Positions 2,922 through 61,569 of a DNA stretch of 64,000 nucleotides are shown here, in pieces. Position 1 is the first letter of the stretch, and each line of letters starts with the position of its first letter. The stretch is from Corallium rubrum. Its lineage: Eukaryota > Cnidaria > Anthozoa > Scleralcyonacea > Coralliidae. Position numbers and translations under genes: made by a program. The notes below the pieces were generated by a model. It was not told where the DNA came from and made no database searches. It worked only from the letters and a program-made list of their open reading frames with translations. Where the stretch lies: the NCBI GenBank assembly GCA_964035015.1, contig OZ036006.1, positions 14,301,690 to 14,365,689 on the forward strand, written 5' to 3'.

Positions 2922-2929
2922 CATAAATC

Positions 2930-3954: not shown

Positions 3955-4150
3955 TATAAACAGAAGTCTATATACAATAAATTAAAGTAGAGTTATTCTC
4001 TAAAATGTCTTATTGACTCATTTCTATCCCAAATTTCAAATTACAAAAGGTTTTATCGGTTTATATTATTTCTGAATCCACAGTCTACAATGTAAACAAT
4101 ACAGCGGTAAAGACCATGGGAACCCCTAGCAACAGTGCTGAGTGCTTTTA

Positions 4151-9626: not shown

Positions 9627-10401
9627 GTATTCGCTTGTGGCCGTTGTAGACAATTTTCTGATTTTCGCCAGGACGACAAATTGGGCGGACAGTACCGTCA
9701 GCAAAGCCAAAGCAGTTCGTCAAAGCAGCTCCTTTCTGTGCTATGGCATCAGCGTATTGCTGAAGAGCATCGTGATTTAGCAAGTCGGCATTCCATTCTG
9801 TTACTCTTGTGTGATGATGCTGATATATCCAGTTCTCTACAGTGCCATATATCATGCTCAGCTCTGGTACCGCGCGACCAAAACGATGAATAAGATCACT
9901 GTACCTACATGGATACGCCAGTCTCTTTAAAAGAATACAGAGTCCTTCTATTCGGTCTGTTTTCGTTCTCTGTGGAGATCTGAGACTGAGTGGGAGGCCA
10001 AGTGCATCAGCCAAGCGAGTTATATCCAGTTTACGTCCATATCTTCAAGGTTGAAGCGGCTGTATTCAGAGTGTGGAAAAACTGGATTTTTTGAGGAGTA
10101 CGCTTGGTACAACAACAGAAATTCATCCTCTGTGATATATTTATTTTGAAAGGATAGCAAAAGAATATTCCGAGCATCTTTAAAAGAACACATGGCTGTA
10201 TTAAAATGTTTGTTTACATTTTGTTCAACGTTCCCATGGTCTTTACCGCTGTATTGTTTACATTGTTGTAGACTGTGGATTCAGAAATAATATAAACCGA
10301 TTAAACATTTTGTAATTTGAAATTTGGGTAAGAAATGGGTCAATAAGACATTTTAGAGAATAACTCTACTTTAATTTATTGTATATAGACTTCTGTTTAT
10401 A

Positions 10402-14016: not shown

Positions 14017-14232
14017 CTTATACAAGTATAAATGCTGTTTCCAGCACACAATATGTCATTCAAGCATGATGAATCCCATGCATTGATATTCGTTATTTGA
14101 CTATGTATTACTGCAGTCAAAGACATGGCTACACATTGTTTACCAGCATTTAGTCTAAACTTCTTTGCATTACCTTGGCTAAAATCAGCACATATAGTTT
14201 TAGTTGGGTCAGCCACATCATATACTGTGGGT
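13802..14232. repeat. Near-perfect 430-bp palindrome
   Basis: The left arm 13802-14010 and right arm 14024-14232 are inverted copies with only a couple of mismatches (for example near 13823). The turn is at ATTGCTTATACAAG. Homology ends inside the Gly-Pro codons of the 2A peptide on the left and directly against the minisatellite on the right. Confidence 0.9.
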
Positions 14233-14235
14233 TCA

Positions 14236-15053
14236 GGACAAGATAGGACAAGACAGGACAAGACAGGACACGACGGGAAAAGACGGGACAAGACGGGACA
14301 AGGCGGGACAAGGCGGGACAAGCCAGGACAAGCCAGGACAAGCCAGGACAAGCCAGGACAAGCCAGGACAAGCCAGGACAAGCCAGGACAAGCCAGGACA
14401 AGCCAGGACAAGCCAGGACAAGACGGGACAAGACGGGACAAGACGGGACAAGGCGGGACAAGGCGGGACAAGGCGGGACAAGGCGGGACAAGGCGGGACA
14501 AGGCGGGATAAGGCGAGACGAGGCGGGACGAGGCGGGACGAGGCGGGACGAGGCGGGACGAGGCGGGACGAGGCGGGACGAGGCGGGACCAGGCGGGACG
14601 AGGCGGGACCAGGCGGGACGAGGCGGGACCAGGCGGGACGAGGCGGGACGAGGCGGGACGAGGCGGGACGAGGCGGGACGAGGCGGGACGAGGCGGGACG
14701 AGGCGGGACGAGGCGGGACGAGGCGGGACGAGGCGGGACGAGGCGGGACGAGGCGGGACGAGGCGGGACGAGGCGGGACGAGGCGGGACGAGGCGGGACG
14801 AGGCGGGACGAGGCGGGACGAGGCGGGACGAGGCGGGACGAGGCGGGACGAGGCGGGACGAGGCGGGACGAGGCGGGACGAGGCGGGACGAGGCGGGACG
14901 AGGCGGGACGAGGCGGGACGAGGCGGGACGAGGCGGGACGAGGCGGGACGAGGCGGGACGAGGCGGGACGAGGCGGGACGAGGCGGGACGAGGCGGGACG
15001 AGGCGGGACGAGGCGGGACGAGGCGGGACGAGGCGGGACGAGGCGGGACGAGG
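14236..15053. repeat. Decamer minisatellite (consensus AGGCGGGACG)
   Basis: There are about 80 head-to-tail units of 10 bp. Variants occur in blocks: AGGACAAGAC at the left, then AGCCAGGACA for about 12 units, GGCGGGACAA, a few GGCGGGACCA, then more than 40 units of GGCGGGACGA. The left units are pairs of the pentamers AGGAC and AAGAC. The array thus looks like a derivative of the same pentamer family as 42437-43797 read from the other strand. All frames are open only because the unit lacks stops. Confidence 0.95.
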
Positions 15054-15054
15054 C

Positions 15055-16335
15055 GTTTTTCAACAATTTAATCAGCGTTTTTCAACAATTATAAGCGTTT
15101 TTCAACAATTTGAAGATGGGAAAACTGCCAAAATAGAAAAGTTGGGGGAATCATTCCAAATGCGTTGTTTTGCTAGTTTTAGGTCAGAAACATCATTTTT
15201 ACCGATAATTTGCCATTTGGAGCTTATTTGAGAAAAAACCTTTTTTCGACTCAGAATGACGAGAAAAGCGTTTTTCAACATTTTGAAGGTGACAAACCTG
15301 CCAAAATAGAAAAGTTGAAGGAATCATTCCAAATGTGTAGTTTTGCAAGTTTTAGGTCAGAAACATCATTTTTACAGATAATTTCCCATTTGGAGCTTAT
15401 TTGAGAATAAAACTTTTTTCGACTCATTATGACGAGATAAGCGTTTTTTAACACTTTGAAGGTTGCGAAACTACCAAGATAGAAAAGTTGAGGGAATCAT
15501 TCCAAATGTGTTGTTTTGATAGTTTTATGTCAGAAACATCATTTTTCACGATAATTTGCCATTTGGAACTTATTTGAGAAAAAAACTTTTTTCGACTCAG
15601 AATTACGGGATAAGCCTTTTTCAACATTTTGAAGGTAGCAAAACTTCCAAAATAGAAAAGTCGAGGGAATCATTCCAAATGTGTTGTTTTGCTAGTTTAA
15701 GATCAGAAACATCATCTTTATCGATCATTCGCCATTTGGAGCTTATTTGAGAAAAAAAACTTTTTTCGACTCAGAATGACGAGATAAGCGTGAAGGTGGC
15801 AAAACTGCCAAAATAGAAAAGTTGTGGGAATCATTCCAAATGTGTTGTTTTGCTAGATTGAGGTCAGAAACATGATTTTTACCGATAATTTGGCATTTGG
15901 AGATTATTTGGGAAAAAAAATTTTTTCGACTCAGAATTACGAGATAAGTGTTTTTCAACATTTTGAAGGTGGAAATTATGCCAAAATAGAAAAGATGAAG
16001 GAATCATTCCAAATGTTTTGTCTTCTAGTGTTAGGTCAGAAACATCATTTTTACCGATAATTTGCCGTTGGGAGCTTACTTGAGAATAAAACTTTTTTCG
16101 ACTCAGAATTACGAGATAAGTGTTTTTCAACATTTTGAAGGTGGCAAAACTGCCAAAATAGAAAAGTTGAGGGAATCATTCCAAATGCTTTAGCTTGCCA
16201 GCTTTAGGTCAGAAACATCATTTTTACGGATAGTTTGCCATTTGGAGCTTATTTTAGAAAAAAACGTTTTTCGATTCAGAATGACGAGATAAGCGTTTTT
16301 CAACATTTTGAAGGTGGCAAAACAGCCAAAATAGA
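15055..16335 (+). repeat. 172-bp satellite, array 1
   Basis: There are about seven tandem copies of an AT-rich unit of about 172 bp, recognisable by GCGTTTTTCAACATTTTGAAG, TCATTCCAAATGTGTTG and TTTTTTCGACTCAGAATGAC. One unit near 15790 lacks about 14 bp. Copies diverge by 5-15%. The first 50 bp after the minisatellite contain three short GCGTTTTTCAACAATT starts. The same satellite, with CTCACAATG in place of CTCAGAATG, forms arrays at 30480-31473 and 34883-35985. The open frames within units are fortuitous. Confidence 0.92.
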
Positions 16336-16592: not shown

Positions 16593-16820
16593 AAATACAG
16601 TGCAGTGCAGTGCAGTACTAGTAAAGTATTAATTAGTACAATATTATAAAAATTATTTATTCAATTATAAATAGGTATTAAATAGGTATGAGACAAACAA
16701 CACTTAAAAGATAAATGTTTGAAAAGTTACAATATAATACAATACTACAATGCAATGCATTGCATTGCACTGCATTAAGCAATGCAATAAGCAATACAAT
16801 ACTATAAAGTGCAATGCCAT

Positions 16821-17035
16821 GCCATACCATACCATACCATATCATACCATATACCATACCATACCACACCACACCACACCACACCACACACCACACACCA
16901 TACCATACCATACCATACCATACCATACCATACCATACCATACCATACCATACCATACCATACCATACCATACCATACCATACCATACCATACCATACCA
17001 TACCATACCATACCATACCATACCATACCATACCA
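16821..17035. repeat. (CCATA)n microsatellite
   Basis: Pentamers CCATA with CCACA variants near 16862-16896, then a pure run to 17035. It changes abruptly into the ACAAT array. Confidence 0.95.
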
Positions 17036-17318
17036 CACAATACAATACAATACAATACAATACAATACAATACAATACAATACAATACAATACAATACAA
17101 TACAATACAATACAATACAATACAATACAATACAATACAATACAATACAATACAATACAATACAATACAATACAATACAATACAATACAATACAATACAA
17201 TACAATACAATACAATACAATACAATACAATACAATACAATACAATACAATACAATACAATACAATACAATACAATACAATACAATACAATACAATACAA
17301 TACAATACAATACAATAC
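17036..17318. repeat. (ATACA)n microsatellite
   Basis: About 56 pure ATACA pentamers following directly on the CCATA block in the same register. The much shorter equivalent in copy B (about 40500-40552) shows that this array expanded or contracted after duplication. Confidence 0.97.
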
Positions 17319-18617
17319 ATTAATGTACAATACAATATACAATACAATACAGCACTCTGCAATACAAATGCAAAGAGAATGTTTATACCTTTTAAGACAC
17401 TGTAAAACTATACAAAATAATAAAATAAATATTTACAATACTGCAACACATTCAAGCAAAACATTTGAATACAATGCAATACAGTACAATATTATAAATA
17501 TCATCTTAAATAATGCATCACCTATAAAAATTATTATTACTTATATAGATAGGTATGGGATTAACTACACTTAAAAATAAACAAATTGTTTCTTTCTACT
17601 TACTTGTCTTGTTTAGTTGGTAGAATATCTTTCTGTCTTTATGTTTGGTGTTCTATCGTTAAGCCCTGGCCCAAAGAAAGAATTGAAAAAAGCCTTTGAT
17701 ATATAAACTTTTATTTATAAAACAAAGAATTGCAAGGAGTAACCACAAAATGTTTTAACTTACAAAATACATTTATAAAATACAAAAAGTAGTGACGATT
17801 TAACTTGTTTTTACATGCCAAACTTAGATATTTTATGTATGGTCAAACACTGTCAAAATTTATATTTTTCGAAGATACAAACGCTATTTATCCCGCTGTA
17901 GAACACTGCAATTTAATCCAAGATACAGAATACTATTACTAATAGTTCACACTCCTTCAGTTTACTAACCTATTTTTATCAAAGTAACGCGATTTCTTCA
18001 ACTTTTTGGCGTCGTTTGTCGTGATCAATCGTTTCCAGTTTTTGTTTGTACAGTGCCGTCACTGCAGTGTTTAACAAGCTTTTTTGACGTCAAAAATCCA
18101 CATATTTAGACAGATAGCACTGGATAAACAAGAGGTTTCCCAAGCACCACTTTGATGACAAATTATGACGTTTTTTGTAGATGTTCACTGTAAAAAGATG
18201 GATTTTTTCCTTGTGTCCATTCAGACTAACCAACCCGCCATCTTCTTGCTTGATTACAGTATTTGTCCAATTATTTCATTTAATGCTTGGAGACCATCTA
18301 TCCACGGGCCGTCCAAACCCTGCTACAGCTGGGAAGACAACGGACGTTAAAATGCAACAACAACAAACAACAATTTATTTGTACCATACATACAAATTAC
18401 GTATATACATAAAAATAAGACACAGAATTAAGATGTTCCACATCTTACAATAGATTGGTACTAGCTGCCTGTAATAACCATATGGGCTAAAAAATACAAG
18501 CAGCTAATAAAATGAATTAAATAGTTATTTATATATAGTGACGGAACATTTCAAAATTGGCCTGGCATAATATTACAAATATTGAATTAAATATATTATA
18601 GTAAATCAGCCAAGCCA

Positions 18618-21600
18618 TCAATAATTATCAATAAATAAAGACAAAAGAGATCTTTTAAATTTAGTCAATGAAAATTGCCTCAATTGTTCATCAAGAGAAT
18701 TCCATATCTTGGGGCCTTGGTATTTTATACTGAAAAGACCATAATTTGTTCTTACCAAAGGAAGGGAATATGAAGACTTAGAGGAGTGTCTAGTATTGTA
18801 ATTGTGAATTTTATTAACTTGTTTTAAAAAAACTTTCAAAAGCTGGTGGTAGAGCTTTATTATGAAATTTGTACATAAAAACATTAATGTGGAAAGTAAT
18901 TAAATCAGTCAATTTAATTATCTTGGTTTTTCTAAATAACGGACTAGAATGCTCATCAAATTTAGAAAAAGTTATAATTCTCAATGCTTTTTTTTGTAAA
19001 ATAAAAAGGGCATTCAAATTTGTGGGTGACGCAGATCCCCAAGCAATTATACCATAAATTAAAAAAGGATAAATCAAAGCATAGTAAAGAGTAATTAAAG
19101 TGTTCAAATTTATAAAATAGCGAATTTTAGATAACAATCCAATATTTCTTCTTAATTTACTGCAAATATATCTAACATGATTTTTCCAATTAAGATTTGA
19201 GTCAATAAATATGCCAAGATATTTAACACAATCCTTATTTTCCAACTCCTGATTATTAATATTTAAAAAAATGGATTGGGTTAAACGCTTTTGTCTTGAG
19301 TGAAAAAGTACGAAGTTAGATTTTTCAATATTTAAGGAAAGTTTATTTGCACACAGCCAAATAAAAATTTTATCCAATTCCTCATTCAAAACCGCCTCCA
19401 ACGTTAGCAAATTTTTATTGGCATAAAATAGATTAGAATCATCAGCAAAAAGATGTACATCAAGTAGTGTACATCTATTGAAATCATTTATATAAAGTAA
19501 AAATAATAATGGGCCAAGGACTGATCCTTGGGGTACCCCACAAGTAATAAACTGACTGGTGGACAATTCACTACCAATAGATACAAATTGCTTTCGATTG
19601 CTCAGATAAGATACAAACCACTCTTTTGCAATTCCTCTGATTCCATAATTTTCAAGCTTATTTAGGAGAATTGTGTGATTTACAGTATCAAAAGCTTTTC
19701 TGAAGTCCAAAAAAATTCCACAAGAGAAACTGCTTTGATCTATGGCATTCTGTATCTTGTCGACTATACTAAGAATGGCGTGATCAGTAGAGTGATTTGT
19801 TCTAAATCCGAACTGTTTATCATACAAAACATTATTTTTTCCGATATAATTCATTAGCCGATTTTGCATCAGTTTTTCCAAAAGCTTATTGAACACTGAT
19901 AAGAGAGATATAGGTCTATAGTTACTTAGACATGTACGAGACCCATTTTTAAATATGGTAATGACTCTGGCTAATTTAAACTTATCTGGAACAATACCAC
20001 TACAGAATGAGGAATTAAATAAAATCTCCAGAGGCCTAGATACAAATGTTTTAATTAATTTTAAAATATTAGTTGGAACACTAAAAGGTCCTGTTGATTT
20101 TTTGTCATTTAATTTTAATATCTCACATTCAATTTCCAATGATGTTACTGGTGTCAAATAAAAGCTATTGGGTAATGAAGCAGGTAAATAACTGCCTGGG
20201 GACCTACCCACGCATGGAATTGATTGAGCAAGGTCAGAGCCAACTTGGATAAAATATTCATTAAATGCGTTAGCAATGAACTTTGTATCAGTTAGCTCAA
20301 TATCATTAGAGACTATCTTAGATGGAATGTTATTATTGTGGGATTTTAAGGTAATAATTTGTTTGATTCCATTCCACATTTTTTTGCTATCACTGATGTT
20401 ATATGTAAAATAATTGTTATAATAATTTTTTTTACTAATTTTACACAAATGATTGATTTTATTTCTATATAATTTAAATTTTGTATAATAATAAATTGTG
20501 CGGGATTTAATATATTTTTTGTATAAATTGTTTTTTATCTTTATGGACTTTCTTATACCTTGTGTTATCCAAGGTTTAGATCTAAATTTTAATTCTTGCT
20601 TTGAGAGTTGTTTTACAGGAATATGAAAGTCAATAATCTGAGATACCTTTTCATGAAACGAATCAAATATTATATTTGGATCATCTGTGGACGGTAAAAT
20701 TTCTTCCCAATTTAATGATTCAAAATCATTGATCATAGCTGATTGATTAAATTTAGAAAAATCTCTTTTGTAAATTTTAATATTTTTAGGTAAATGGGAA
20801 TATTTATTGATAATTAGAAAGTTAGGCAAATGATCCGTCAAGTCATAAACAATATTACCACTCATTGATAGGTGTACAGTAGAATTAAAAAAAATATTAT
20901 CTATTAAAGTAGATGAGTGGTCAGTAATCCTAGTAGGTTGTAAAATATGAGGTTGAAAGTGAGAAGACATGAGGTTATTAATAAAATTATCTGTATCTGG
21001 ATGTGATTCAAATTTTAAAAGATCAATATTGAAATCACCTATGATAGCACAGTATTTACACTCTTTATTTATTATATCAATAACCCCATTTATATGCTCC
21101 ATAAAACTATTCATACTTCCATTAGGATGTCTATAAACAACACCACAAATTATATTATGCTGAGATTTGTTTTCAATTTCAATCCATAACGATTCAAAGT
21201 CATCTTTAACCGATGTCGATAAATCAGATCGGACTGAATAACTGAGGTCATTCAAAATATAAAAACCTACTCCACCAGCATTAGTTAACGTACATTGTGA
21301 TAGAAAATAATATCCCGACAAATCACTATTTGTTAGTTGGTCCTGATTTAGTTTAAATTTAGTTTCAGACAAGCCAATAACAGAGAAAGGATGATTAATT
21401 TCATGAAGCATATTCACTAAATTATCATAATTTTTTGAAAGGCTACGTATGTTACAATGCAAAATCGAAAATGAACTATTAGATGATAAACACTTAGATA
21501 ATTCTTCATTGGTATGAAATTCACTGGTATTATAATAATTAAAATTTATATCAGAAGGCATATTTAGATCAACATCAGAAATTGTAAGATGTGGAATATC

Positions 21601-21705
21601 TGTGGTAGAAGACATAATATCTAAGCGTGGAAGAGAGTCAAAGTCACAGTCACTGAAACGCTCAGAGCTTATAGATATATTAATATTGTTAGTCATCGAA
21701 CACAT
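18618..21705 (-). CDS. LINE ORF2: endonuclease and reverse transcriptase (one frameshift)
   Basis: The protein is about 1030 residues if the frameshift is ignored. The N-terminal third is an APE-type endonuclease with N-I-R-S-L-S, L-S-E-T-K, G-D-F-N-I-D-L and T-D-H-L-P motifs. The middle is a reverse transcriptase with D-F-R-K-A-F-D-T-V-N-H, G-V-P-Q-G-S-V-L-G-P and F-A-D-D-S-N. The C-terminal domain ends I-W-N-S-L-D. The long frame stops at 18814. The homologous C-terminus continues in another frame to 18618, because of one extra base in the A/T homopolymers at about 18822-18832. All catalytic motifs are intact. The frame shift is either a recent inactivation or a homopolymer sequencing error. 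Confidence 0.88.
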
Positions 21706-21750
21706 GATAAGTTATACAAAGACAATAATAAAAAGTATATAGTACTTGAC

Positions 21751-22525
21751 TTAGCTTTCGAACACCTTTAAATCTTTTATTGATGCTATGTGCATAACAG
21801 AACTATGATCATCCTTTTTCATGTAAATCTTCCCCACATTTGTCCATAAAAACTTGAGTCCTTTAGCTTTCTTTACCTGAAGACATTTGTAAAATAAGTC
21901 CTTATTTCTTTGGGTGAGACTTTCATTGATGAAGATTTTATTGGAAGTGTTATATCCAAGGTTTTCTGAGGTAATATTCTTGAGCAATCTTCTAGCACGG
22001 TAGAACTTATCGCGTACTATGCGATTTGTAAATTTGACTATAATTGGAGTTGGAGAACCAGTATAAAGACTAGATGATCTTCTACTAGGTAGACGATGGC
22101 TGATTGAGATATCATACTCTTGTATAGTTACTCCAATTTTATCCCCAAGGCTTTGGACAATATCGTTCGTTTCTTCCACGGATTCGGATTCTTTCTCGGG
22201 AATTCCTTTGATTTCTAGGCAGTCCCTTCTTGAGTACTGTTCTAAATTATTCATGGCTTCCTTGAGTGAATTAATCTCATTCGCAGAGCCCAATACCTGT
22301 GTTTTAAGGCTCGTATTTTCTTTGACCAAGTCGTTATTCGCTACTTCAACTTTGCTTAATCTCTCGACAAATTCCTCAAATTTGGTATTGAGAAAAGATC
22401 TGACTACTGATCACCTCGGTAATCTTGTCGTCAAGCTCTTTGTAACGTGTCGTCAAAGACTCACTCAAGCTATGAATCAGATTCTCGATTTTATCAAATC
22501 TAGCATTGATTTTCTTGCTATCCAT
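21751..22525 (-). CDS. LINE ORF1 protein with coiled coil (one frameshift)
   Basis: The ATG at 22525 starts a helical, charged region (D-S-K-K-I-N-A-R-F-D-K-I). The frame changes near 22390 and then runs open to 21751. The second part has a coiled coil around L-E-Q-Y-S-R-R and a compact C-terminal region with I-S-H-R-L-P, I-V-K-F and R-N-K-D-L-F-Y. This order resembles L1-type ORF1 proteins and FP-like domains, which act as RNA-binding chaperones. It is about 258 residues once the shift is ignored. It lies just upstream of ORF2 on the same strand. Confidence 0.75.
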
Positions 22526-22849
22526 CGCGAATAATGTAGAATGGAATACGATAAACTTGTTATAGATACAAAATTATGATCTCTGCTGTCTTTAGTAATA
22601 TAATTAAGAAATTTTTATCTCGCTTACAATAAACACGTCCGCCATTACTGTACATTGCAATACATTTATTTTATGCTTTTAAATCAAATTGCTTTGCTAT
22701 ATATCATAAGACAATTCTACTATCTGCTCTCGTCGCATGTGAACGATAAAGTGCCTCATCTTTCATGAGCTCATATCTGACTTAAGGTGGCTCAATACAC
22801 TTTTTAGCCTAAGGGCTGGGAACGTGAGATTTTGATCTTTTAACTAATT

Positions 22850-25160
22850 TACAGTTTCCAAAATCTAACAAAAGTTTAGTATATGGAGTAAATGTTAAAA
22901 ATTAGTACAAATTTGAAAACATATAATGTTGTCAAGGCAATTATGACGAAAGCAATGTTGGCAAAATGGCGTCCATAATGACAGTTTTTTTGTTTTATTT
23001 CGAAAAAAACTTTGGTGACCCCCAATTTTTAAACGATGAATCATAATCTGTTGTTGCAACAGATGTTTTGGGTAAGTTTCAGAAAATTCTGTAGAAGCAA
23101 ACGATCAGAATTGAAAATCAGCATTTTTGAAATTTTCGTTCTACAGAATTTTTTAAAATTGTTTTCCTGAATGCTACATGTGTGTATCTATTTGCGTGCC
23201 AATTTTCAGGATACCTTACCAAAGTGGTTTTCGTGATATTTAATGTTTCATGCGCTTACTCCTCGCGCGGCCAAGATGTTTTTCTTCGCTTGCAAGAACA
23301 ATGACTTGACATGCGCGTACGCGTAATCGCAGGCGCAACTCACAATAAACACGCAGAAAACACGCATATAAATTCTAATTACTCGGGCTACCTGTGGTAG
23401 AACGAGTCTAGGTTTCGGTCCGGTTATTGGTATTTTTGGGGGTCGCGGTTATTAGTCCTCCGCGCGGCCGCTGGCGATATTGACCAATAAGCTTTGCGAA
23501 ACTGAGGCATGTGACTACGGCGGACCTTGGAATCTACTAGACATTGTAATGATTGTTTTACCAAAACTCGCCAGGATCTGTCAAGTAAAGGTAAGCTGTT
23601 TCGTTATTTCCATTGGTACAGTACGTAAGCTTATTTAGATAGCCGTTGTTTAAATTTAGTTTATAGAACAAAGTTTTTATACCATGTTTAAACGATTTTG
23701 TTTGAGCAGTTCGAAATCGCTTATCCGTGTATGAATTAAACATTTTGAAAAGTTGTTGAACACAATTAACTTAAGCTCATTTGGATAACCATAGTCACAT
23801 AGACATGGATACATGTAAACAAATCTCCTAAAAATTGACATTGTGATTACTATACTGGTATAGCTTCATGGGTTTGTTCATGTAATGACTCATGTAATCA
23901 CTCAAGATTTTGAGCCTTGGACCCTTAGGGTTGTCCACATTATGTCAACATGGTTTTGAGCATAATAGTGAGGCAAAAGTATAGATCCACTCTGTGTTCT
24001 TGAAAAAACTTTTGACAAAACTATATTAAAGATGGATTCCCACACAAGACACCAGTCTAGAGACCAAGGACCCAAGGCACACCACTTTCTCGATACATAA
24101 CATGCACAATGCAAACCGTAACCCATAACCATTTTGGTTGTGCATGTACTGTATTGAGAAAGAGCCCTAGGCACCTCATTTTAAGACCATTCCTGGTTAC
24201 AATGACTTCCAGACATACATCGCTTCCAGTATATCCAGTTCTAGATGACTACTGGTACAAGTTTTAATGCTTCAGTGTCAGCTGCCTCCTGTGTTTACTG
24301 TCATCTACTAATTCATTTTACCTGTCTTTATGCGAATCATAATGGAGCATAATAGATAGTGATGCTACAGTATTTGAGCAAGGTTTAAAACACATGTTCT
24401 CTTTAGTTCATCCACCTGATATTGATTGAAATTCCACTTTTATACCCTGGGCTAAATTACTGTAACTGTCACAAACCCATACCCATTGCCTTTTATGTAC
24501 CTAACATGTAGAATTAGTGGGTCAATCCCTTTTTATCTGCCACCATCATCAACTTTGGCTGATACTCATGAAAATCTTGGACCATGGCTCTATTTTCTCT
24601 TATACAGTACTTTTTTTGCTAATTTTTGTTAATTAATCTGTAGATCCAGGCCCAGAGCCTGGAAGTTAAATTTATTGTCACAGCTGTCAGCATGTACACA
24701 GAATGTTGGTGGAGCATGGTGATGCTATAACATGAGCAGTGCTGTTGATAATCCTGTTGCAGCCTTGAAAATGAATGACTTCAGATATCATTATGTGAGA
24801 TCTGTGAACACCATCTAAACAGTTTATTAACAATAACTAAAATATTACAGTGTAATATGTACACAAAATGTCACAATACTGTACATATAGTTCGAGATAT
24901 AGTTAAAGCAATGTCATGATGGCTTTCAGTATATGATTTCTATGTTGTCTCAATCTAGGTTGTCCATGCATGTAAGTTTATAATGGTAGTCAATAAAAAA
25001 ATCGTTCTTTGTAAAACAAGTGAGTGTGCTTTCTAACATGTCCTCCTCCACCAATCTCGTTGTCCACAGTCATCGCCATGCCCATTGCCCATGCCCAGTA
25101 GCCCGAGTTAACGCCTAGCGGGCGTCTTGTTTATCATCCTCTGAACAAGATTATTGTATT
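22850..25160. other. Non-coding left part of the Kolobok-like element
   Basis: The sequence is AT-rich with a CpG-rich stretch near 23400-23480. Short frames (for example 23558-23743 and 23902-24174) have no domains. Probably a long 3' untranslated or spacer region of the transposon. Nothing more is supported. Confidence 0.5.
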
Positions 25161-26273
25161 AAAACTATATAGCTCGACTGTTAGATCGAAAGTGCTTAAC
25201 AATGTTTTGGAGGATTCTTTTATTCTTGGTTACTCGTGGTTTACATACTTTATCTGGTCGCTGACACTCTGGATGATTCGGTGGCATGCTCAATATTCCA
25301 ACGACACCAACTTCACCAAAACTGTGGTACAAGGTAGAAAGATCGTTGTATGCCAATCCACTACCAGCAATTTTAAGAGCCATTCCTCGGCTGATCGGAC
25401 TTGGATCTTTGTTTGGATAATAAAGATTGCCAGTTACGAAGCTTTGAAGAACATTATGACGACGATCGATGTAATCCAAATCAGTTTTTGCATCACGAAC
25501 TGAATTAATCTGGCTGAAATTTACTATTGTCTCGACATCAATAGCCAGTTCAGAACTGAACAGGATCTTCTTTAGTGCAAGTACATCTTCCAGAGCATCG
25601 TGGTCATCGAAATCTTCGTCAAACAAGCATTTGTAAACGCTGCTCTGATTGGATTGACAGTACTCTCCGTTCGATTGCTTCAGTGGGGAATGATGGCGCA
25701 GAAGTAACGATCTTATAAGCGCTAAACTATCTCCAAAATACACATTCATTTCGTGAAGTTGTTTTTCGAATAATATACCAGCATTGCGAAGAAGTGTTGG
25801 GACATCGAAGGTGGCTGAATTATGTCCGACAAGAACTGTAGGCTGAATGCGAACTATTGTGTTGATCTTGAAGGAATTTGATGAACGATTCCAAGGCGGC
25901 ATCAAGGGAGACTGAATTTACAGGGTAAGAACTCTTACACAATGTTCTTGTTCCTTTTATGTATTCCACTGTAAGATTATTTACTCTTGATGCGCTGAAA
26001 CTAACACAACCTTTAGGAAGAATATATGTAGAATATGTTGCACCAGTTTGAGTGACTGCTGATAGCTGGCAAATCTCTGCGCTTCTACCTGTAGATGTTG
26101 TTTCCGTGTCAAATATTACAAATTGGTACGCTTTGCTTGGATTATATGTTATGTACAGTTTGGTTGGCCTCTCTGTACAACAAGGAACTAACTTCTCAAA
26201 TTCTTCACATTGCTTTTGTGTTATACCAACAACGATTTTATCAATATCTGTATCATCTGTATTAATTGTAGTA

Positions 26274-26936
26274 ATAATAATAATAATAATACAAAATTTC
26301 TATAGCGCCGTTTCCGTATAGCCCAATGGCGCTTTACAATTTTAAATGAGAAGACTTAATAAATATATAGCTAAATAATGTTTAAGGAATTCAAAACGTT
26401 CTAAAAATCGTGAAAAGTTAAGAAAAGTTGATAAAGAACTAAACTAAATTGTAGGCCTGATTAAAAAGATGCGTTTTTATGTTCGTCTTGAAACTGGTTA
26501 TAGATTCACAACGACGAATATCCTCAGGCAATAAATTCCACAACCTGGGTGCGATATATTGAAATGAACGTTCTCCATAGCGGACTAATCTTGCAGGTGG
26601 AGTACTTAAGAGCAGACGTGTAGATGATCGTAATTCTCTAATGGGCTTATAGGTCTCTAGCATATCACTAATATAGCCAGGTGTCAAGCCATGTAAAGCC
26701 TTATAGGTCAGGAGTAGTAATTTAAATATAATTCGTTGCCTGACAGGTAACCAATGCAGGTTTATAAGCACTGGGGTTATATGGTCATATTTCTTAGAAC
26801 GTGTTATAAGTCGTGCTGCAGAGTTCTGAACACTTTGAAGACGATCGAGTAAAAATTCCGTGATGCCATATAATAGCGAGTTGCAGTTGTCAAGTTTAGT
26901 GGTGATGAAGGCATGAACTAGGGTTTCAGACTGGGA
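26274..26936 (-). mobile_element. 5'-truncated LINE tail inserted in the Kolobok-like gene
   Basis: A 663-bp fragment on the minus strand is flanked by a 7-bp duplication TGTAGTA (26267-26273 and 26937-26943). It encodes the C-terminal reverse-transcriptase tail (L-D-N-C-N-S-L-L-Y-G, L-H-W-L-P-V-R-Q-R and P-R-L-W-N-L-L-P) ending at 26439. It closes with a (TAA/TTA)n tail at about 26274-26291, typical of CR1/L2 LINEs. By chance it is open in frame with the host transposase, creating an apparent 669-residue chimera. Confidence 0.9.
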
Positions 26937-28884
26937 TGTAGTATCTTCTAGTTGAAGATTGAGCCCAATGCCCGTTTCATAGGTTTTACCTTCTCTTGCT
27001 TCTTTTTTTGTGTTTTTTGAAATTCTTTGAGATAGCAGTTGATGACGTCTTGTTTTAAATTTTTTACAGGACTTGCGTATTTTGTCTTTTTCTTGTTTTT
27101 TGTCCATACTGGTGTTGTGTAGGATGCAAGTGTTTCCAGGATCTATATCAAGGGATTCCAATGTTTTGTTGATATAGGAGCATCCAATGTTTTTTTGGGC
27201 TACTGCACATGCAACACGAAAGTCATTGCTTTCACTTCCTCCATAAAACCTGATTTTAGGATTCTTACTTCCAATTGTACTATTCATTGATTCATTTCTC
27301 TGTGAGTTTGCAAATGGCACTAGTTTTGCTGCTACAAGGTCTGTTGCATATTCATCGAACAAACTGGTAAGTGATTGTTTTAACTCATTACTTTCCAAGT
27401 CTTTATTGTATGGAAGATCTCTATGTTTGTATGTCAAAGGATCTTTTTTGTAACCACACCACGAGGGACTACAGCCTTGATGGTCTCCAAAAGCATGAGG
27501 AACAATGCACTTCAAAGCTAATTTTAAACTAGTTACATTTGAATTTTGTGCTATGCAGTATGTAAAACATTTTCCTAAATAGTTAATGACTTTTTGGCTT
27601 AAAGTAGATGAATTTGGAAATTTACATCGAGTTGAAAGATTGTATAGCCTTGTTATTAGTGAACGTTTTGCATGTATAATATCTGACCACTTATCTACTC
27701 CGTAAGGAACATTTTGGTGAAGATGACTTTGTGTGGTTGTATCGTCATCTCCCACATAAATTGAAAATTTCACATTTTCCTTAGGGGCAGCATTCCATAG
27801 CTCACATGCAACAGTTGGTTCCATAGCTTTGGATGAGCCAACATGGTTTTTTCGGCAATCATGCTGTCGTGGTTGTTTCCCTTGCTTTTTGGCACCATCA
27901 CACACTCTGCAGAACTTACATTTAGTTGCATAAGCCAAAACATTCCCTGTTGTTAGTCCCATAACTGTCCCTTGTCCTGTCAATGAATTGTGTCCCTTTC
28001 CTCGCTTTTGCCATCCCATGTCATATGACACAGGAAATCCAACCAAACCATTTTCATCTGCAACTGCCCCATTTGATACAGCATTCTCCTTTTCAGTTTG
28101 CATGTTTTTCTTGCAGCTTGTTTGAACAAAACATTCAACAGCTTTTCCAACTTCCCGTTCCCGTGATTTGAAAGTGGCATTGTTCAATGTTGGAATGTTC
28201 ATTGTTGACAAGAGGTTGTTCAAATGTGTATTGCCTATACCAGCATGCAGTGAACCAAGTACAGCCCGAGAATTGATGTCAAATGTTAATCGCCCACGCT
28301 TTCCAGTTCTGTGTTCTGAAGATGTTTTCAGCTTGTTGATCCTTCCACATACATGGCATTTAATTTCAAAGATACTTGCAAGACCAACCATATCCTCTTT
28401 AATTACGTTGCTAAGTGACAGTGGACCTAGAAGTAATTTATAAGCCAAATATTATCTTATTATTTTTGCTGCACAAGCTGTGTTCAATTGTTAGTACTGT
28501 ACACAGAACCACCTCTGAACTATAGACAGGATTCAAGCTCACAACCTTCTGAGTGATAGCTAGATGTCTATATTGAGCTACTGGAACTCAGAGCAAGGTT
28601 AACTACCATATTTAAACCTGGTAATGAGTCATATTGTAACAGTAAATTTTCAGTCAGAGTACTAACAACTAAAGACAGCTTGTACAGCAAAAACAACAAC
28701 AATATACTAACATCAAGCTGAAATTTTTCAACTAAGCTAAACTAAAATATTATTTTGTAATAATGTTGTGGTTGACATTTATTACTGTATACTGTCTGAT
28801 ATTTTGGTGTTCCTGTCCGGTATGGCCTGCCTTCATTCTTTTACTCTGGCTGGACAATGTTAGAGTATTTATCAGTGATGGATT

Positions 28885-29165
28885 CACAGGGGGGTTGCAC
28901 CCCCCTGGCCTTGGCCAAGGGCGGGGGGGGGGGGTGTGCCAATTGCCTTGTCAAATCCAAGTACATTAATTAAAGAACGCATTCATTCAATTTCTGTGTA
29001 AACTTCATGCTATCATATGATTCATAGATATATGATTCATATATTTATTAGCTATCATATGATTCATAGGTATTAATAGGTATAAAAAAAAATTCTGGTT
29101 GGCTTTGCCCCCCTACCCCCCAGCCTCACAAACAGCTTGGAGAAGGGGCGGAGGTCGGGGTCAAC
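28885..29165. repeat. GC-rich inverted-repeat stretch, possible MITE
   Basis: The left part has GGGGGGTTGCACCCCCC and TTGGCCAAGG palindromes followed by a 12-G run. The right part has CCCCCCTACCCCCC. It resembles hAT-type MITE ends with a CAG-TGATGGATT start, but matching termini and duplications could not be found. It lies in an intron of the Kolobok-like gene. Confidence 0.35.
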
Positions 29166-29424
29166 AGGAATGGATTAAACTTGGATGCATGTAAAGCTTC
29201 TGGTATATGATAATATATACAAACCTGTAAGGCAATGACTGCAAGCAGTAAGACTCGTACTTAAAAGCTCCACATCAAAAATGCGGCACCCTTGTGGTGT
29301 TTGGGAAGCATTTTCGTGTTGTTGTCTCTGTAATTTAATTAGAGCAGAATATAAAGTATTAAAGTCAAATTAGGGTCGCATGAAATAATTAAGTGACTGA
29401 TTATTTTAAACAATTGCACTCACT

Positions 29425-30000
29425 TCTTTACTTCGTGTATTCCTTTTTTTTGTCGCACTCATATCATTGGTGTTTTCTACAAATTCAAGTTTTCGTTTTG
29501 CTTTTCGTAAGAGGTTCATTCGCTTCAACTTGTTTGCTTGCTTCTCCAAAGACTCTGGAGTAGTTTTCTTTACCTATCTGCCTTTGTCGCTCTTTATTTT
29601 CTCCACGTTGTTTGTATGCGGTGTTGCAAAGTCACTCGCTTCATATTTTCCTGCTTCCAGTTTCTGGAGAGAAAGAACTGTGAAAACACCTGCTAGGAAA
29701 CCGAGTTCAAGTGTTGGCCAAAATCGCTGCGGTTTTTCGTAGTTTTCGTTGCGGTCATCTTCGCGGTTTGGCAGCCAAATTTGACACGGTCTTGACTTTT
29801 CGCTGAAGAATTTTCCAGGCCAGAAAACAATTTCTGTTCTCTTAATGCCAAAACCTAATACTAGTATATCTGTATTTTCAATGTGGCATAGCATGCGAAA
29901 CCCTGAAGCCAAAGGACGAAAAAATCGGCAAAATGCAGCCATGTTTGTTTGTTTTCATAATTTCCCGCGGGACATTTAAATGCCGAAAAAATGCGCGCGT
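29425..30000 (-). other. Likely 5' region of the Kolobok-like gene
   Basis: A minus-strand frame from 29942 runs to a TAG at 29574. The same frame then continues with a basic K-Q-A-N-K-L-K-R-M-N-L-L-R segment to a GTGAGT donor at 29424. It could be the first coding exon with a stop, or an untranslated leader with coding from the ATG at 29519. The phase to the next exon does not match, so it is left uncertain. Confidence 0.35.
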
Positions 30001-30204
30001 GTAATTTCGCAATTACACGCGCAATAAAAAAGTAGTGCCCAGTCCCTTTAATGAAAAGTATATTGAGCCACCTTAAGCTCATACTTTAATTGTTAAATTC
30101 ATCATACCTGTATGTAAATAAATTATTCTCTATATCACTCTTACTTGTTTTTGAGATATTGTCTATTTTATTTTTAGATCATGTCCTGCCCTGGTGAAAA
30201 TCCT

Positions 30205-31981: not shown

Positions 31982-34409
31982 CTACACATTCACCCTTCTG
32001 TTTCCTTTTGAAGCCCAGCAATTAATGAGTACATCAATCTCGAGTTTCGGTACCAGATCTTTGTTTAGGGTTATGCATAGAAGGTCCCCGAATCTGCGTG
32101 GAGTTACCTTTGATCGTAACTTGGAACAGACTCTGTTCATTGCTGAAAAGCTCCGTTCCACAGTAGCCGTACTCATTGCAATGGTGTTCTTTAAGTTGAC
32201 GAGCTTCATTAGGTTAGCAGATCTCTTTTCACTAATCGGTAGCCCCCGTTGGAAATCTTCTCTGGCACGCAACAATTCCAGTTTGAGGATGGATCTGTTA
32301 ATGCCCAAGCAATCAAAGTGCTGAACAAGATAATCTAGAGTCTCGATGTCCAAGTAGCACGGTTTAGACGCATCCAAAGCTTCGAAAGCTTTCATTATTT
32401 TGATGTTTTTGCTGTCGAACCGGATTTGGAACTCTTCCTCGATCTTGCTTTTCATGTAAGAGTTGAGATCAGAGATGATGTTATTGATTGAATCTTCAGC
32501 AGTGGCTGATGATGATGATCTTGTTCGGTGTATTGGCATGGTGAGTTCAAGAGGTATGCCGGTCTTTTCAGAATACTCGTTTAGCTTCACTCTTATCTAA
32601 TCATCGTCTATTAGGGAAACCGATTTGCGGGTCCTTTCAACCTCATACTGAACATCTGTACAGTTCATGCTCTGACTCTGCAGCTCTTTGGACAGGAAGA
32701 ACATTCTAGCTAGGTATGCGTGGAGTGTGATCAGCCCAACAATCTGCTTCGCAGTTGTCAACTTATTGTAAAACCCACTCGCTTGCTCGACATGTTTTGG
32801 GTCATGCATTCTCGGGTTTTGTGTAACTCTGATCAAAGTTTCTAAAGTAACATGAGGTTTGTCCGTTATCAGATCAACTGCCTCAAACGTGCACCCCCAA
32901 CGTATGTCTATCTGCTGAGCCAGATGTTTAATTTGTGACTGAGGGTAAAGTTCGCTGTATACGGTATCATAGACATCTCTGACTTTTGGATGATTCAGAA
33001 ATGTATAGAGGGACTTGATTGTAGACATGATGTCAAGCGCAAGGTTGGAGCCTTTGATTAGATCGTTCACCAAAAGATTTAAACTGTGAGCAGTGCAATG
33101 TATGTATATTAACCAGTGAAAGTACTCAGAACGCAACAGCTCTGCAACCCTAGCAAATTCCCCTGACATAACACTTGCACCATCGGCTCCTAGACATACT
33201 ACCATTGAACTCCCTGAGGTGTGGATGATATGATCAATCAATTCTTTTGTAAATTTCTTGATTGTGTGGGCATCGAACTGATCTAGCTTCCGAAGTTCCA
33301 CAAACCTCTCCACTACTTTTCCTGCAGAATATCTTACAGCCAAAGCCAACTCTTCTCGTTTCGCGGCGTCTTTACTTTCATCGATGAGTGTTGAAAACAT
33401 GCCGGCATCTTTAATCTGAGCATAAATGATCTGACGAATATTCTCAGCTATTACTTCGTTGATGTCATTGACACTGGTTTTGCTGGTGAGGTATAGTCCA
33501 TGCTTTTTGCCGTGGTGAACTTGTCATGGAGCTGTCTGAACGAGGGATTTGTTTTCAGTTGGAGTTTGATGAAGGAAACCCATTTACCCGGGTTCTTGGA
33601 TTTCTCTGTCTCATCGTTAGCCCTCATTGGAACTTCATTACTTGCGAACCAGAGGATGTATTTGAATAGGCATCTGAGATACTCTCTGTTGTTGCTGGCT
33701 ACCTGTTCCCTTTCAGGACCTATCCTTTGAATTATATCCTTTTGTTTTCCCTCTTGAATCTTTTTTAGCTCCATCCACCTGGCATAACTGTTTTCATGGA
33801 GCTCAGATTTTTCATGCTGTTGGAACCCTTTACCGCTATCGAGGGCATTTGCCCAGTTGGTATATCCTGTCTGTGTGAACGTCAAAGCAGCACACGAGCT
33901 ACTCGTGATTGAAGAAAATTTTGTACAACAATAACAAAAAGCGGCGTATTTTTCAACATCATACTCGTCGAGCCAAGGAAATTGTAGATACCATGACACA
34001 TTGACACGTGGAAGCACTTAGTTTTCCTTGACTTAGGGTCACGTACTGGGAACTTCCAGAGCTTAGGCTGTCTTGGTCCTTCAAGCGTAGCTTCACGCGT
34101 GGTATGGGATTGGTAGGATGTTCTGGGCTCTATAGGCTTTTTATTTATGTCACTTGAAACAGATATTTCCCCAGTCTCATTTATTGCTTGGCTTTCTGAA
34201 TCTCTCGAAGACGGTTTTTCTTGATCCGAACCTTCGAAATCACCACTAGCAACAATTTGAGCGGCCTCAATACCTTCTCCACGGTTTTCTGGTTCGACTA
34301 TCTCATGGTCGATAATTGAAAAGTCTTCGCTTTCTTCACATACATCAATTATTTCTGCTGATCTGGAGTTTACCTGAATGCAAAAGTGCAATGAATTGTA
34401 GAATATCAA
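31982..34409 (-). pseudogene. hAT transposase (ZMYM1-like family), degraded
   Basis: Reading leftward: an acidic N-terminus, then P-K-L-W-K-F-P-V, then after a frame change at about 34020 a TTF-type zinc finger (F-P-W-L-D-E-Y with C-Y-C-C). After another frame change at about 33450 comes the catalytic core (L-I-D-E-S-K-D, C-L-G-A-D-G-A-S-V-M and H-C-T-A-H-S-L-N-L). An in-frame TAG follows at about 32600, and then the dimerisation domain with A-T-V-E-R-S-F-S-A-M-N-R. The order matches TTF-zinc-finger hAT transposases related to ZMYM1-type proteins. Two frameshifts and a stop make it inactive as assembled. The long leader before 34017 may include an intron. Confidence 0.88.
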
Positions 34410-34764
34410 TTTAGCAGAATGCTAAAAAAATGTAACCAAAATGTAATGTTACGTATTTTAGTTACCTGGGTGTTGGAGGGTTCATTTTTGTTCTTTTTCG
34501 TGAAGAAAGTCCCCAGTGTCCTTTGCCTTTTTTTTCCTCTTTGCATTAACGCATTCTACATAAGCTCGCGAGTTCAGATTCTGTTTTTTCAAGTTCGCAA
34601 GCAATGATCTTTAATAGTTTATTCATAATATTTCATATAATTTTCGAAAAGTGCTCAAAACTTTGTAACCTCGCAAAATCAACCCGCAAGTAAGGTGGTC
34701 ATATGTGCCTGAAATATATTCTATTCCAATTTCGGTCAATAGGCTGGTAATATATATTATTTGC

Positions 34765-41730: not shown

Positions 41731-42436
41731 ATATTACTGTAACTTTGCAAGTCTATCTATTTCAATATTTTAAATTTTCATGTATTTTTTAGGCTCGAGT
41801 ATAATCTAGAAAACCAAACAAAAGACAGAAAGATATAATTTTATTCTACTAACTATTTAATAAGTAAGTAGAAAAATATGTTTATTTTTAATGTGGCTTA
41901 TTTATAAATTATTAAAGATGATATTTATATAATGTTGTTCTGTATAAGTATTGTAAAGTTTTTAGAGATGTGCCAGATCTGGGTATTGGTGCCCTGTGGG
42001 CAGTATCCAGTAAAATTTTGCTATCTGGCAGTGTCTGGTATTTGGTAAAACATTTTACAGTTTTAAAGGACTGCCTTCCCTTCTCTTGCCTTAATTGTTT
42101 TGTCTTACCTCACTTTGCCTTGGCACTTACCTTGCAGGTTGCCTGCGAGGCTGCCTCACTTTGCCTAATTTACATCTCAGGTATTGTTATGCATTTGCAT
42201 TGTAATTTGGATTTATTCGAATTACTGCATTGTAAATTTGCAAGTATATTTATTTTTTATCATCAATTTTCGTGTGTTATTTCTAGGCCAGAGTTTAACT
42301 ATATATAGACGACCAAACATAGAGACAGAAAGATATTTACAAGTATAGACAAGTAAGTAGAAAACAACAATTATATCTATATTATGCACTGTTATATCCT
42401 ATACCTATTTATAAATAGATGATATCTATATATTGC
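41731..42436. other. Non-coding spacer between pentamer arrays
   Basis: Contains repeated phrases such as AAACAGACAGAAAGATAT-like and AAGTAAGTAGAAA words (near 41825-41875 and 42320-42365) also present beside repeat copies A and B. These suggest several diverged copies of one repeat family in tandem. No gene. Confidence 0.5.
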
Positions 42437-44040
42437 CTTGTCTTGCATCTTGTCTTGTCTTGTCTTGTCTTGTCTTGTCTTGTCTTGTCTTGTCTTGTCT
42501 TGTCTTGTCTTGTCTTGTCTTGTCTTGTCTTGTCTTGTCTTGTCTTGTCTTGTCTTGTCTTGTCTTGTCTTGTCTTGTCTTGTCTTGTCTTGTCTTGTCT
42601 TGTCTTGTCTTGTCTTGTCTTGTCTTGTCTTGTCTTGTCTTGTCTTGTCTTGTCTTGTCTTGTCTCTTGTCTTGTCTTGTCTTGTCTTGTCTTGTCTTGT
42701 CTTGTCTTGTCTTGTCTTGTCTTGTCTTGTCTTGTCTTGTCTTGTCTTGTCTTGTCTTGTCTTGTCTTGTCTTGTCTTGTCTTGTCTTGTCTTGTCTTGT
42801 CTTGTCTTGTCTTGTCTTGTCTTGTCTTGTCTTGTCTTGTCTTGTCTTGTCTTGTCTTGTCTTGTCTTGTCTTGTCTTGTCTTGTCTTGTCTTGTCTTGT
42901 CTTGTCTTGTCTTGTCTTGTCTTGTCTTGTCTTGTCTTGTCTTGTCTTGTCTTGTCTTGTCTTGTCTTGCATCTTGTCTTGCATCTTGTCTTGTCTTGTC
43001 TTGTCCTGTCCTGTCCTGTCCTGTCCTGTCCTGTCCTGTCCTGTCCTGTCCTGTCCTGTCCTGTCCTGTCCTGTCCTGTCCTGTCCTGTCCTGTCCTGTC
43101 CTGTCCTGTCCTGTCCTGTCCTGTCCTGTCCTGTCCTGTCCTGTCCTGTCCTGTCCTGTCCTGTCCTGTCCTGTCCTGTCCTGTCCTGTCCTGTCCTGTC
43201 CTGTCCTGTCCTGTCCTGTCCTGTCCTGTCCTGTCCTGTCCTGTCCTGTCCTGTCCTGTCCTGTCCTGTCCTGTCCTGTCCTGTCCTGTCCTGTCCTGTC
43301 CTGTCCTGTCCTGTCCTGTCCTGTCCTGTCCTGTCCTGTCCTGTCCTGTCCTGTCCTGTCCTGTCCTGTCCTGTCCTGTCCTGTCCTGTCCTGTCCTGTC
43401 CTGTCCTGTCCTGTCCTGTCCTGTCCTGTCCTGTCCTGTCCTGTCCTGTCCTGTCCTGTCCTGTCCTGTCCTGTCCTGTCCTGTCCTGTCCTGTCCTGTC
43501 CTGTCCTGTCCTGTCCTGTCCTGTCCTGTCCTGTCCTGTCCTGTCCTGTCCTGTCCTGTCCTGTCCTGTCCTGTCCTGTCCTGTCCTGTCCTGTCCTGTC
43601 CTGTCCTGTCCTGTCCTGTCCTGTCCTGTCCTGTCCTGTCCTGTCCTGTCCTGTCCTGTCCTGTCCTGTCCTGTCCTGTCCTGTCCTGTCCTGTCCTGTC
43701 CTGTCCTGTCCTGTCCTGTCCTGTCCTGTCTTGTCTTGTCTTGTCTTGTCTTGTCTTGTCTTGTCTTGTCTTGTCTTGTCTTGTCTTGTCTTGTCTTACG
43801 TCTTACGTCTTACGTCTTGCGTCTTGTCTTACGTCTTACGTCTTACGTCTTGCGTCTTGTCTTGTCTTACGTCTTACGTCTTACGTCTTGCGTCTTGTCT
43901 TACGTCTTACGTCTTGCGTCTTGTCTTACGTCTTGCGTCTTGCGTCTTGTCTTGCGTCTTGCGTCTTGTCTTACGTCTTGTCTTACGTCTTGTCTTACGT
44001 CTTGTCTTACGTCTTGTCCTGTGACTTGTCTTGCGTCTTG
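42437..44040. repeat. 1.6-kb pentanucleotide array, TGTCT / TGTCC
   Basis: (CTTGT)n covers about 42450-42995 with three small interruptions. A nearly pure run of over 140 CCTGT units spans 43003-43725. CTTGT returns to 43797, and a CpG-bearing mixture of TTACGTC, TTGCGTC and TTGTC words closes the array to 44040. The three very long open frames here exist only because the 5-bp unit has no stop codon in any frame. They are not genes. Confidence 0.97.
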
Positions 44041-44715
44041 TCATGGCATGAGAAAGGCTAACTGATTAACACCCACAATCTATATTGTTTGTAGAACCAT
44101 TAAATCCCTTATTCATCTGATTGTATGCATGCATGTGATACATACATAATATAACTATTCAAAAAGATGTCCAGATAACAACTTATCCTACTACGTACTG
44201 TACAGTATAGCACACTAGAGGCTAGTTTACATAATACAGAAAAGCCAGAATGAATGCTGCCAGTACTGTAATGATCAGTAAAAGTTGAACAAAGCTCAAC
44301 TTTTACAGTCTTTGCGGTAACGTTACATCATTCGTTATAACAGATGCATGTGGCTTAAATTAAAGTGTTTTCCCTCAGTAAATTTGATAAAATACACAAT
44401 TTAATTTGTTAGTGAGTACGAGATTAGATGGTTTACCATTAATGGTCACTCGATCATGTTATTAAAGGATTGGAACATCATTCATGAAGCTTAAAGTTAA
44501 GATTCCAAGTTAAGATTCGGAATAATAAGTGACATTCAAATCAGAATCCAATCTGTATGATAGGAATTCCTAGCTTTAATACGATTGACATCGGTGTAGG
44601 AGAAACATCTCAATAAGTAATTTGGAACAGTATGAAATTACCCTTATTTTCCACGCATTGCCCATTTCCTTATATCCATATCAATGGCGTTTGCAACACT
44701 TTATATTTTAATAGG
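44041..44715. other. No gene recognised
   Basis: AT-rich CACTA interior between the pentamer array and the accessory exon. A small inverted AAAGTTGAAC/GCTCAACTTTT pair lies at about 44279-44306. Possibly an intron of the accessory gene. Confidence 0.4.

Positions 44716-51992: not shown

Positions 51993-61569
<9,577 letters not shown>

Follow-up and report, generated by a model that had tools for sequence, protein, structure and literature searches.

Are a transposase and a proofreading-type exonuclease that lie on one strand of a Corallium rubrum contig two parts of a single transposon gene, or were they brought together by decay and insertion? We addressed this question in a stretch of 64,000 nucleotides (assembly GCA_964035015.1, contig OZ036006.1, positions 14,301,690 to 14,365,689 of the forward strand), the whole of which is referred to here as the window. 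Coordinates are positions in this stretch, and L-numbers denote other loci from its own 474-Mb genome. Our analysis indicates, with a probability of roughly 85% for identity and fusion, that the window holds a decayed copy of a low-copy transposon of the KolobokD lineage, which was recognized by comparing its features with the published description. The predicted product is one chain in which an N-terminal region precedes a DDE transposase core, and a DEDDh 3'-5' exonuclease with a PML_C domain after it forms the C-terminal part.

Evidence for one exon and one reading frame

The minus-strand open reading frame (ORF) 28451..26439 matches the Mutator transposase profile (Pfam PF20700) from profile position 27 onward, with an E value of 1.2e-92. 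This agrees with the Kolobok-like transposase named in an earlier model-made reading of the letters (i.e., the sequence-only reading). The same strand carries the motifs FDTETT, GHNSATFD, and HDALED in the overlapping ORFs 26299..25820 and 25917..25165. The complete DEDDh set announced in that reading is thus present, but it is split by a frameshift that the reading did not mention.

Between the two parts lies an insert on the minus strand (about 26274..26928; one base is ambiguous), the strand of the transposase/exonuclease gene itself. On account of its encoded C-terminal sequence, we take this insert to be the 3'-end fragment of a long interspersed nuclear element (LINE); it gave no database match. 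The corresponding sites of L009, L010, and L011 are empty. Both copies of the heptamer TGTAGTA are already present in these empty sites, which rules out TGTAGTA as a target-site duplication. At the native join, the protein reads LEDTTSQSTTINTDDT (LEDTT-SQST-TINTDDT). The sequence-only reading had joined the frames by removing the LINE tail together with one TGTAGTA; its frame is retained, but the TGTAGTA belongs to the native sequence, and the join is four residues longer.

Five copies other than that of the window keep both sides of the join (L009, L010, L011, L013, and L036), and the join is open in three of them, with frames of 471 aa (L009), 779 aa (L010), and 177 aa (L036) running across it. 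In L011, the DNA of the join is intact, but the frame is shifted shortly before it, and the exonuclease is reduced to about its first 42 residues. In L013, a small deletion affects the join itself, and the exonuclease is open for about 300 residues beyond it. The natural 779-aa frame of L010 covers the greater part of the transposase core and all but a little of the exonuclease, and it matches PF20700 (positions 125-357; 3.3e-60), RNase_T (2.8e-5), and PML_C (Pfam PF25244; 2.5e-6; cut-off, 27.1 bits), all three above the curated cut-offs. A profile search of the joined region, which had been suggested as a check on the fusion, thus returned the transposase profile, RNase_T, and PML_C in this copy.

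These results support, at the level of predicted translations, the view that the Kolobok-like transposase and the DEDDh exonuclease share one exon and one frame. The in-frame fusion proposed earlier holds in L009, L010, and L036, and we saw neither an exonuclease carried by the copies as a separate, unrelated gene nor a junction frame that fails to be conserved. The three copies open across the join also rule out the join as a LINE artefact. That two unrelated genes met by accident in the window copy alone, through a LINE insertion and decay, might be read from the break of the window copy precisely at the join, but it is extremely improbable given that L009, L010, and L036 are open across the join (L010 in one natural frame) and that L009, L010, and L011 preserve LINE-free empty-site DNA.

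Predicted gene structure

Splice phases predict three exons on the minus strand. Exon 1 (29424..29942; 519 bp; 173 codons) ends at the donor GTGAGT, and exon 2 (29225..29327; 103 bp; acceptor TTACAG; donor GTTTGT) has phases that fit exons 1 and 3. Exon 3 (28426-25165) follows the acceptor TTCTAG and begins with the last two bases of a split codon. Its first part (26929..28426) contains the PF20700 match and would encode the DDE transposase core and tail (DMGW ... GDDD ... DIIH ... NESMN), while its second part (25165..26273), with the DEDDh exonuclease and PML_C, is frameshifted within 25820-25917. The "one exon" of the sequence-only reading therefore describes the core and the exonuclease, which lie together in exon 3, but not the gene, which is predicted to have three exons. 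Exact 13-base matches to the splice sites were found for four of four sites in L009 and L010, three of four in L011 and L036, and two of four in L013. With their fitting phases, exons 1 and 2 could supply the start of the predicted gene.

The window copy is damaged within the coding region. Exon 1 contains one in-frame TAG, at a place through which L009, L010, and L036 are open, and the exonuclease frameshift falls within the ORF overlap 25820-25917, where L009, L010, L013, and L035 are open. Decay of the other copies weighs against the reading of a single continuous chain: an uninterrupted frame from exon 1 through the whole of exon 3 was seen in no copy examined. The frame of L010 is shifted early in exon 3, and this copy is missing the far end of the element, passing into flanking DNA after exonuclease residue 361. 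The transposase of L009 contains frameshifts, and in L036, an insertion of about 1 kb, together with a frame break, divides the exonuclease.

The intron ahead of exon 3 also contains two 42-bp inverted arms (28457-28498 and 28658-28699; 86% complementary). Matching arms occur in other copies, so that the pair probably belongs to the family itself or to a nested element that inserted long ago.

Ends, target site, and extent of the element

The whole element spans 22786..30072 on the minus strand (7287 bp), so that the interval 25165..29327 assigned to it earlier was too small. Its ends are exact 12-bp terminal inverted repeats, GGTGGCTCAATA, located at 22786..22797 (plus strand; past the 3' side of the gene) and at 30061..30072 (minus strand; ahead of the 5' side), and each adjoins a TTAA target-site copy (22782..22785 and 30073..30076). 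The expectation of TTAA-flanked ends was borne out in the window, L009, and L036. The ends of L036 are those of the window copy, and L009 has GGTGGCTCCATA ends, in each case with TTAA on either side. The sole remaining end of L011 and that of L013 adjoin TTAA, and that of L010 adjoins TTGA. When up to two mismatches were allowed, GGTGGCTCAATA was not rare, occurring at 9 sites (mean of shuffles, 4.2; 6 of 100 shuffles reached 9). Since two perfect inverted copies of GGTGGCTCAATA adjoin TTAA and this arrangement is repeated at other loci, the ends in the window are not due to chance.

The L009 copy (2286-7222) is 4937 bp long, is flanked by TTAA, and lacks both insertions nested in the window element. 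The second of these (23381..25129; no strand assigned), which the earlier interval did not take in, is absent from L009 and L036. This 1.7-kb insertion has the inverted ends ACTCGGGCTAC, at 23381, and GTAGCCCGAGT, ending at 25108. L015 and L016, two loci with other Mutator-type transposases, carry a related repeat.

When the 303-bp gene-side end of the element was searched against the whole genome, six places that are 95 to 100% identical were detected, which indicates a low-copy family. L035 is a seventh locus of this family and keeps parts other than the 303-bp end.

Comparison with KolobokD and other Kolobok lineages

The combination of a transposase with a DEDDh exonuclease is already known. 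The name KolobokD was given in 2022 to a lineage of Kolobok elements that encode such an exonuclease, and the passages devoted to it report these elements from molluscs, arthropods, and cnidarians, describe the exonuclease as similar to Exu, TREX, and ERI1, and propose that it degrades DNA intermediates from the 3' end (Kojima & Bao 2022, PMC9587614). The window element shares with KolobokD, as described there, the TTAA target, the 5'-RR ... YY-3' ends, a DDE transposase with DxxH, and a DEDDh exonuclease. Specifically, the termini are GG...CC in the window, L009, and L036, and DIIH, corresponding to the C/DxxH of KolobokD DDD/E transposases, lies between the second D and the E. The motifs DMGW, GDDD, DIIH, and NESMN were located in the transposase translation, with the catalytic residues assigned by eye. 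The KolobokD description also includes zinc-finger motifs, i.e., a CCHC after the first D and another between DxxH and E (PMC9587614). Candidate zinc-finger patterns (CKFC...HDC and C..H..GC...WC) were seen by eye in the translation.

What differs from the published description is the shared frame and the PML_C tail presented here; the passages on KolobokD are silent about the frame, and the word PML is absent from the text of that paper (PMC9587614). Neither a link of PML to KolobokD or to any transposase nor the PML_C tail and Plex9 kinship of a KolobokD exonuclease was found among the papers listed in our literature searches. Two other lineages, KolobokE and KolobokH, likewise have a Kolobok transposase with a nuclease or helicase downstream; according to the passages describing them, this is a PD-(D/E)XK nuclease or a RecQ helicase in place of DEDDh (PMC9587614).

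Relatives of the exonuclease and its PML_C tail

The PML_C match of the window lies at 25183..25395 on the minus strand (residues 175-245 of ORF 25917..25165; E value, 3.2e-7; 30.9 bits). When the exonuclease of the window was read through its frameshift, PML_C (7.1e-7) and RNase_T (4.6e-6) both scored above their cut-offs, and Rv2179c-like (3.3e-5), Exu_RNase_H_like (3e-4), and DNA_pol_B_exo1 (0.022) scored below theirs. L009, which needs no read-through, exceeded the cut-offs for PML_C (4.5e-7) and RNase_T (1.4e-5). L013 ends ahead of most of PML_C; it gave no PML_C match and an RNase_T match below the cut-off. The D-x-E, D, and H-x4-D residues are complete in L009 and L010.

By sequence comparison with solved structures, the EXO domain is closest to Plex9. 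The window read-through matched PDB chains 9mrd (5.3e-15), 9mrc (1e-14), 9l8b (1.1e-11), and 9l85 (9.5e-10), and these four Plex9-type entries were the only ones among the matches listed for L009 (1e-13 to 1.6e-8). 9MRC is zebrafish Plex9.1 (preprint PMC12934764), and the label "Plex9-type" for 9mrd, 9l8b, and 9l85 reflects kinship and PDB name only. A profile built from L009, L010, and a free-standing exonuclease gene of the same genome (described below) matched the Plex9-type chains at 5.7e-26 to 9.9e-23, part of this strength being due to the free gene (2.6e-26 alone), and it matched Exu at 4.1e-7 and TREX1 at 0.11.

Three points weigh against this reading: the Exu match needs the profile with the free gene included; chains of DNA polymerase delta (0.089) rank just above TREX1 (0.19) in the search with the window read-through; and AlphaFold models were poor, with a mean predicted local distance difference test score of 32.6 (single sequence) and 43.6 (three-row alignment). 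TREX1 resembles the exonuclease of the element in being a 3'-5' DNA exonuclease of the DEDD fold, with the weak matches given above, but its sequence is much more distant. To our knowledge, TREX1 ends without a PML_C domain.

PML_C is known from vertebrate PML isoform I, and in the element it is also C-terminal to EXO. The PML_C piece alone retrieved no PDB chain at an E value of 10 or less; homology to PML itself therefore rests on the Pfam PML_C model. Plex9 and the exon-9 domain (PXL) of PML isoform I combine a DEDD-type exonuclease fold with a C-terminal domain, as set out in a preprint (PMC12934764). Human PXL, a constituent of a nuclear-body protein, no longer has an active site, whereas the DEDDh set of the element is intact and follows a transposase. 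Drosophila Exuperantia (5l7z and 5l80) has an EXO + SAM arrangement, the EXO part of which is the part that our profile matched; it differs in being a pseudo-nuclease that regulates mRNA localisation, without a transposase (PMC12934764). We infer that the exonuclease groups with Plex9, PML exon 9, and Exu; Pfam PML_C would correspond to the SAM-like part of PXL.

Distribution in the genome and signs of selection

A protein search of the 474-Mb genome with the exonuclease gave 12 matches at nine loci, i.e., seven of the window family, one of a second family, and one free-standing gene. PML_C was detected at six places (E value of 0.01 or less), namely, five element copies and the free-standing gene.

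The free-standing gene has two exons (L033:8127-8415, 9581-9991 plus L034:1-862; C15:10,963,626-10,965,861). A frame ending in VVIDLETSSRG is followed by a GT donor, and the next exon starts with DDAEICQIAA after TTTTAG; together, the two exons contain the full DEDDh set. Its PML_C match is the strongest in the genome (2.3e-20), RNase_T matches at 4.1e-10, and its best PDB chain is 9l8b (2.6e-26). No transposase match was found in the 19.5 kb around it. The gene may be a domesticated piece of an element.

The second family is represented by L037 (C1:34,397,500-34,407,490), in which GGAGGCTCCATA ends adjoin TTAA and the PML_C tail is 46 to 52% identical. A stretch resembling exon 1 (38% identity over 50 residues; E value of 0.001 in a two-sequence BLAST) runs into this PML_C tail. 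L037 is best taken as a copy from a second KolobokD-like family that has probably lost internal sequence. Between the tails of L037 and L009, the ratio of nonsynonymous to synonymous substitution rates (dN/dS) was 0.15 over 30 codons and 0.30 over 44 codons, with synonymous sites near saturation.

Within the window family, seven copies provided 21 pairs, 15 of which shared at least 90 codons in each half; stop codons were left out. The dN/dS values were below 1 in all 15 pairs, both for the exonuclease (0.21 to 0.66) and for the transposase (0.16 to 0.76), and the synonymous excess was significant (P < 0.05) in 10 and 8 pairs, respectively. The comparison supports, but does not prove, that the exonuclease has been kept along with the transposase. 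On the opposite side, 5 of the 15 exonuclease pairs and 7 of the 15 transposase pairs had no significant synonymous excess, and the copies are few, young, partly decayed, and nonindependent, with few changes among them.

Genome-wide, there are at least 126 PF20700 matches (114 of 295 candidates scored). The idea that the exonuclease is common to the Mutator/Kolobok elements of this genome was rejected, since tblastn (E value of 1e-3 or less) found it at none of 15 loci outside the family (L002-L008, with 1.5-kb flanks only; L012; and L014-L020) and the genome-wide exonuclease search reached no more than the nine loci given above. No relative was detected in viral contigs or in a collection of genome contigs, plasmids gave no match, and phages gave two places at an E value of 0.08.

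Other Kolobok/Mutator transposases of the genome include many open copies with equal scores, such as 531-aa PF20700 copies, and L005-L008 have identical 674-aa frames. These open frames suggest that other Kolobok/Mutator families have been recently active.

Other features of the window and the genome

On the minus strand of the window, a LINE with endonuclease and reverse transcriptase is located at 18814-22410 (RVT_1, 4.1e-35), with a second ORF upstream. Two further transposase remnants lie on this strand: a DDE_Tnp_4 fragment (6704-7177; 8.1e-14) and remains in several frames at 31982-34421 (DUF4371, 1.2e-6, below the cut-off), which we take to be hAT-like. A likely exon of a host gene (53699-55648, minus strand) encodes cadherin domains (1.7e-33), matches EGF/teneurin-like and SEA domains more weakly, and is adjoined by an LTHS-type tandem repeat. 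Long short-period repeats that are open in several frames occupy 42392-44065, 14101-15231, and 16678-17574.

Elsewhere in the genome, the mitochondrial-type contig C129 (97 kb; L044/L047) contains several COX1 matches, some full and some broken, that lie in both orientations. AGA is found at four of eight arginine motifs checked in its COX1 frame, and a 575-codon stop-to-stop frame running past COX1 has 8 AGA codons and 1 AGG codon among 14 arginine codons. Such usage argues against the vertebrate, bilaterian-invertebrate, echinoderm, and ascidian mitochondrial codes, although taken alone it is compatible with a protist; together with animal-type genes such as the cadherin/EGF exon, it points to a probably non-bilaterian animal. 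ARAGORN with bacterial settings found no tRNA in 10 kb near COX1 on this contig.

Possible role, origin, and meaning

The transposase would cut and paste at TTAA and, if made as a single chain with the exonuclease, would bring the fused nuclease to the excision complex, where the nuclease could degrade or trim the 3' ends of donor breaks or of failed, abandoned excision products. We offer such local trimming or processing as a tentative role for the exonuclease; the sequence-only reading had proposed a similar one, which comes near to the suggestion of Kojima & Bao (PMC9587614). A less probable role, which we consider rather unlikely, is the removal of stray DNA (i.e., retroelement cDNA or extrachromosomal DNA) in the manner of TREX1 and Plex9, by which the element would be protected from DNA sensing or from competing elements. 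The closest solved relatives of the exonuclease are of the Plex9 type, and the PXL region of PML-1 binds nucleic acid, as stated in the preprint (PMC12934764); both facts suit the removal of stray DNA, while the fusion in one frame argues for action at the site of the transposase.

Regarding origin, score comparisons slightly favour the capture of the exonuclease by the transposon from a host gene like the free-standing one, rather than the reverse, given the greater similarity of the free gene to Plex9 and PML_C. It outscores the transposon exonuclease against both PML_C (2.3e-20 versus 7.1e-7) and the Plex9-type chains (2.6e-26 versus 5.3e-15), a gap that the copying of a host gene by the transposon predicts but that a higher evolutionary rate of the transposon would produce as well. 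Under the opposite scenario, hosts domesticated an ancient KolobokD exonuclease, from which vertebrate PML exon 9, Plex9, and insect Exu are derived, and the free-standing gene is likewise a piece of a transposon taken over by its host. The predominance of element copies among the PML_C places (five of six) fits this scenario, as does a free gene that has the full DEDDh set over two exons and no transposase match nearby, but the higher scores of that gene stand against it, and we regard it as improbable. It seems somewhat probable that the exonuclease-PML_C module of vertebrate PML isoform I, Plex9, and insect Exu is of ancient animal origin and has passed between KolobokD transposons and genes of their hosts. 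The genome, which is probably that of a non-bilaterian animal, has a free-standing version whose active site is intact as well as versions borne by transposons; if it is indeed non-bilaterian, the EXO-PML_C module would be far older than vertebrates.

The association of a proofreading-type nuclease with a cut-and-paste transposase represents a natural experiment in how transposons handle their own breaks. The PML_C link provides a concrete relative outside vertebrates, with its active site intact, for the nuclease domain of PML and Plex9, and it may help explain the origin of these proteins. If the proposed movement of the module is correct, the nuclease half of PML would predate vertebrates and be shared with a selfish element, and the anti-transposon exonuclease of PML and the transposon's own exonuclease would be relatives.

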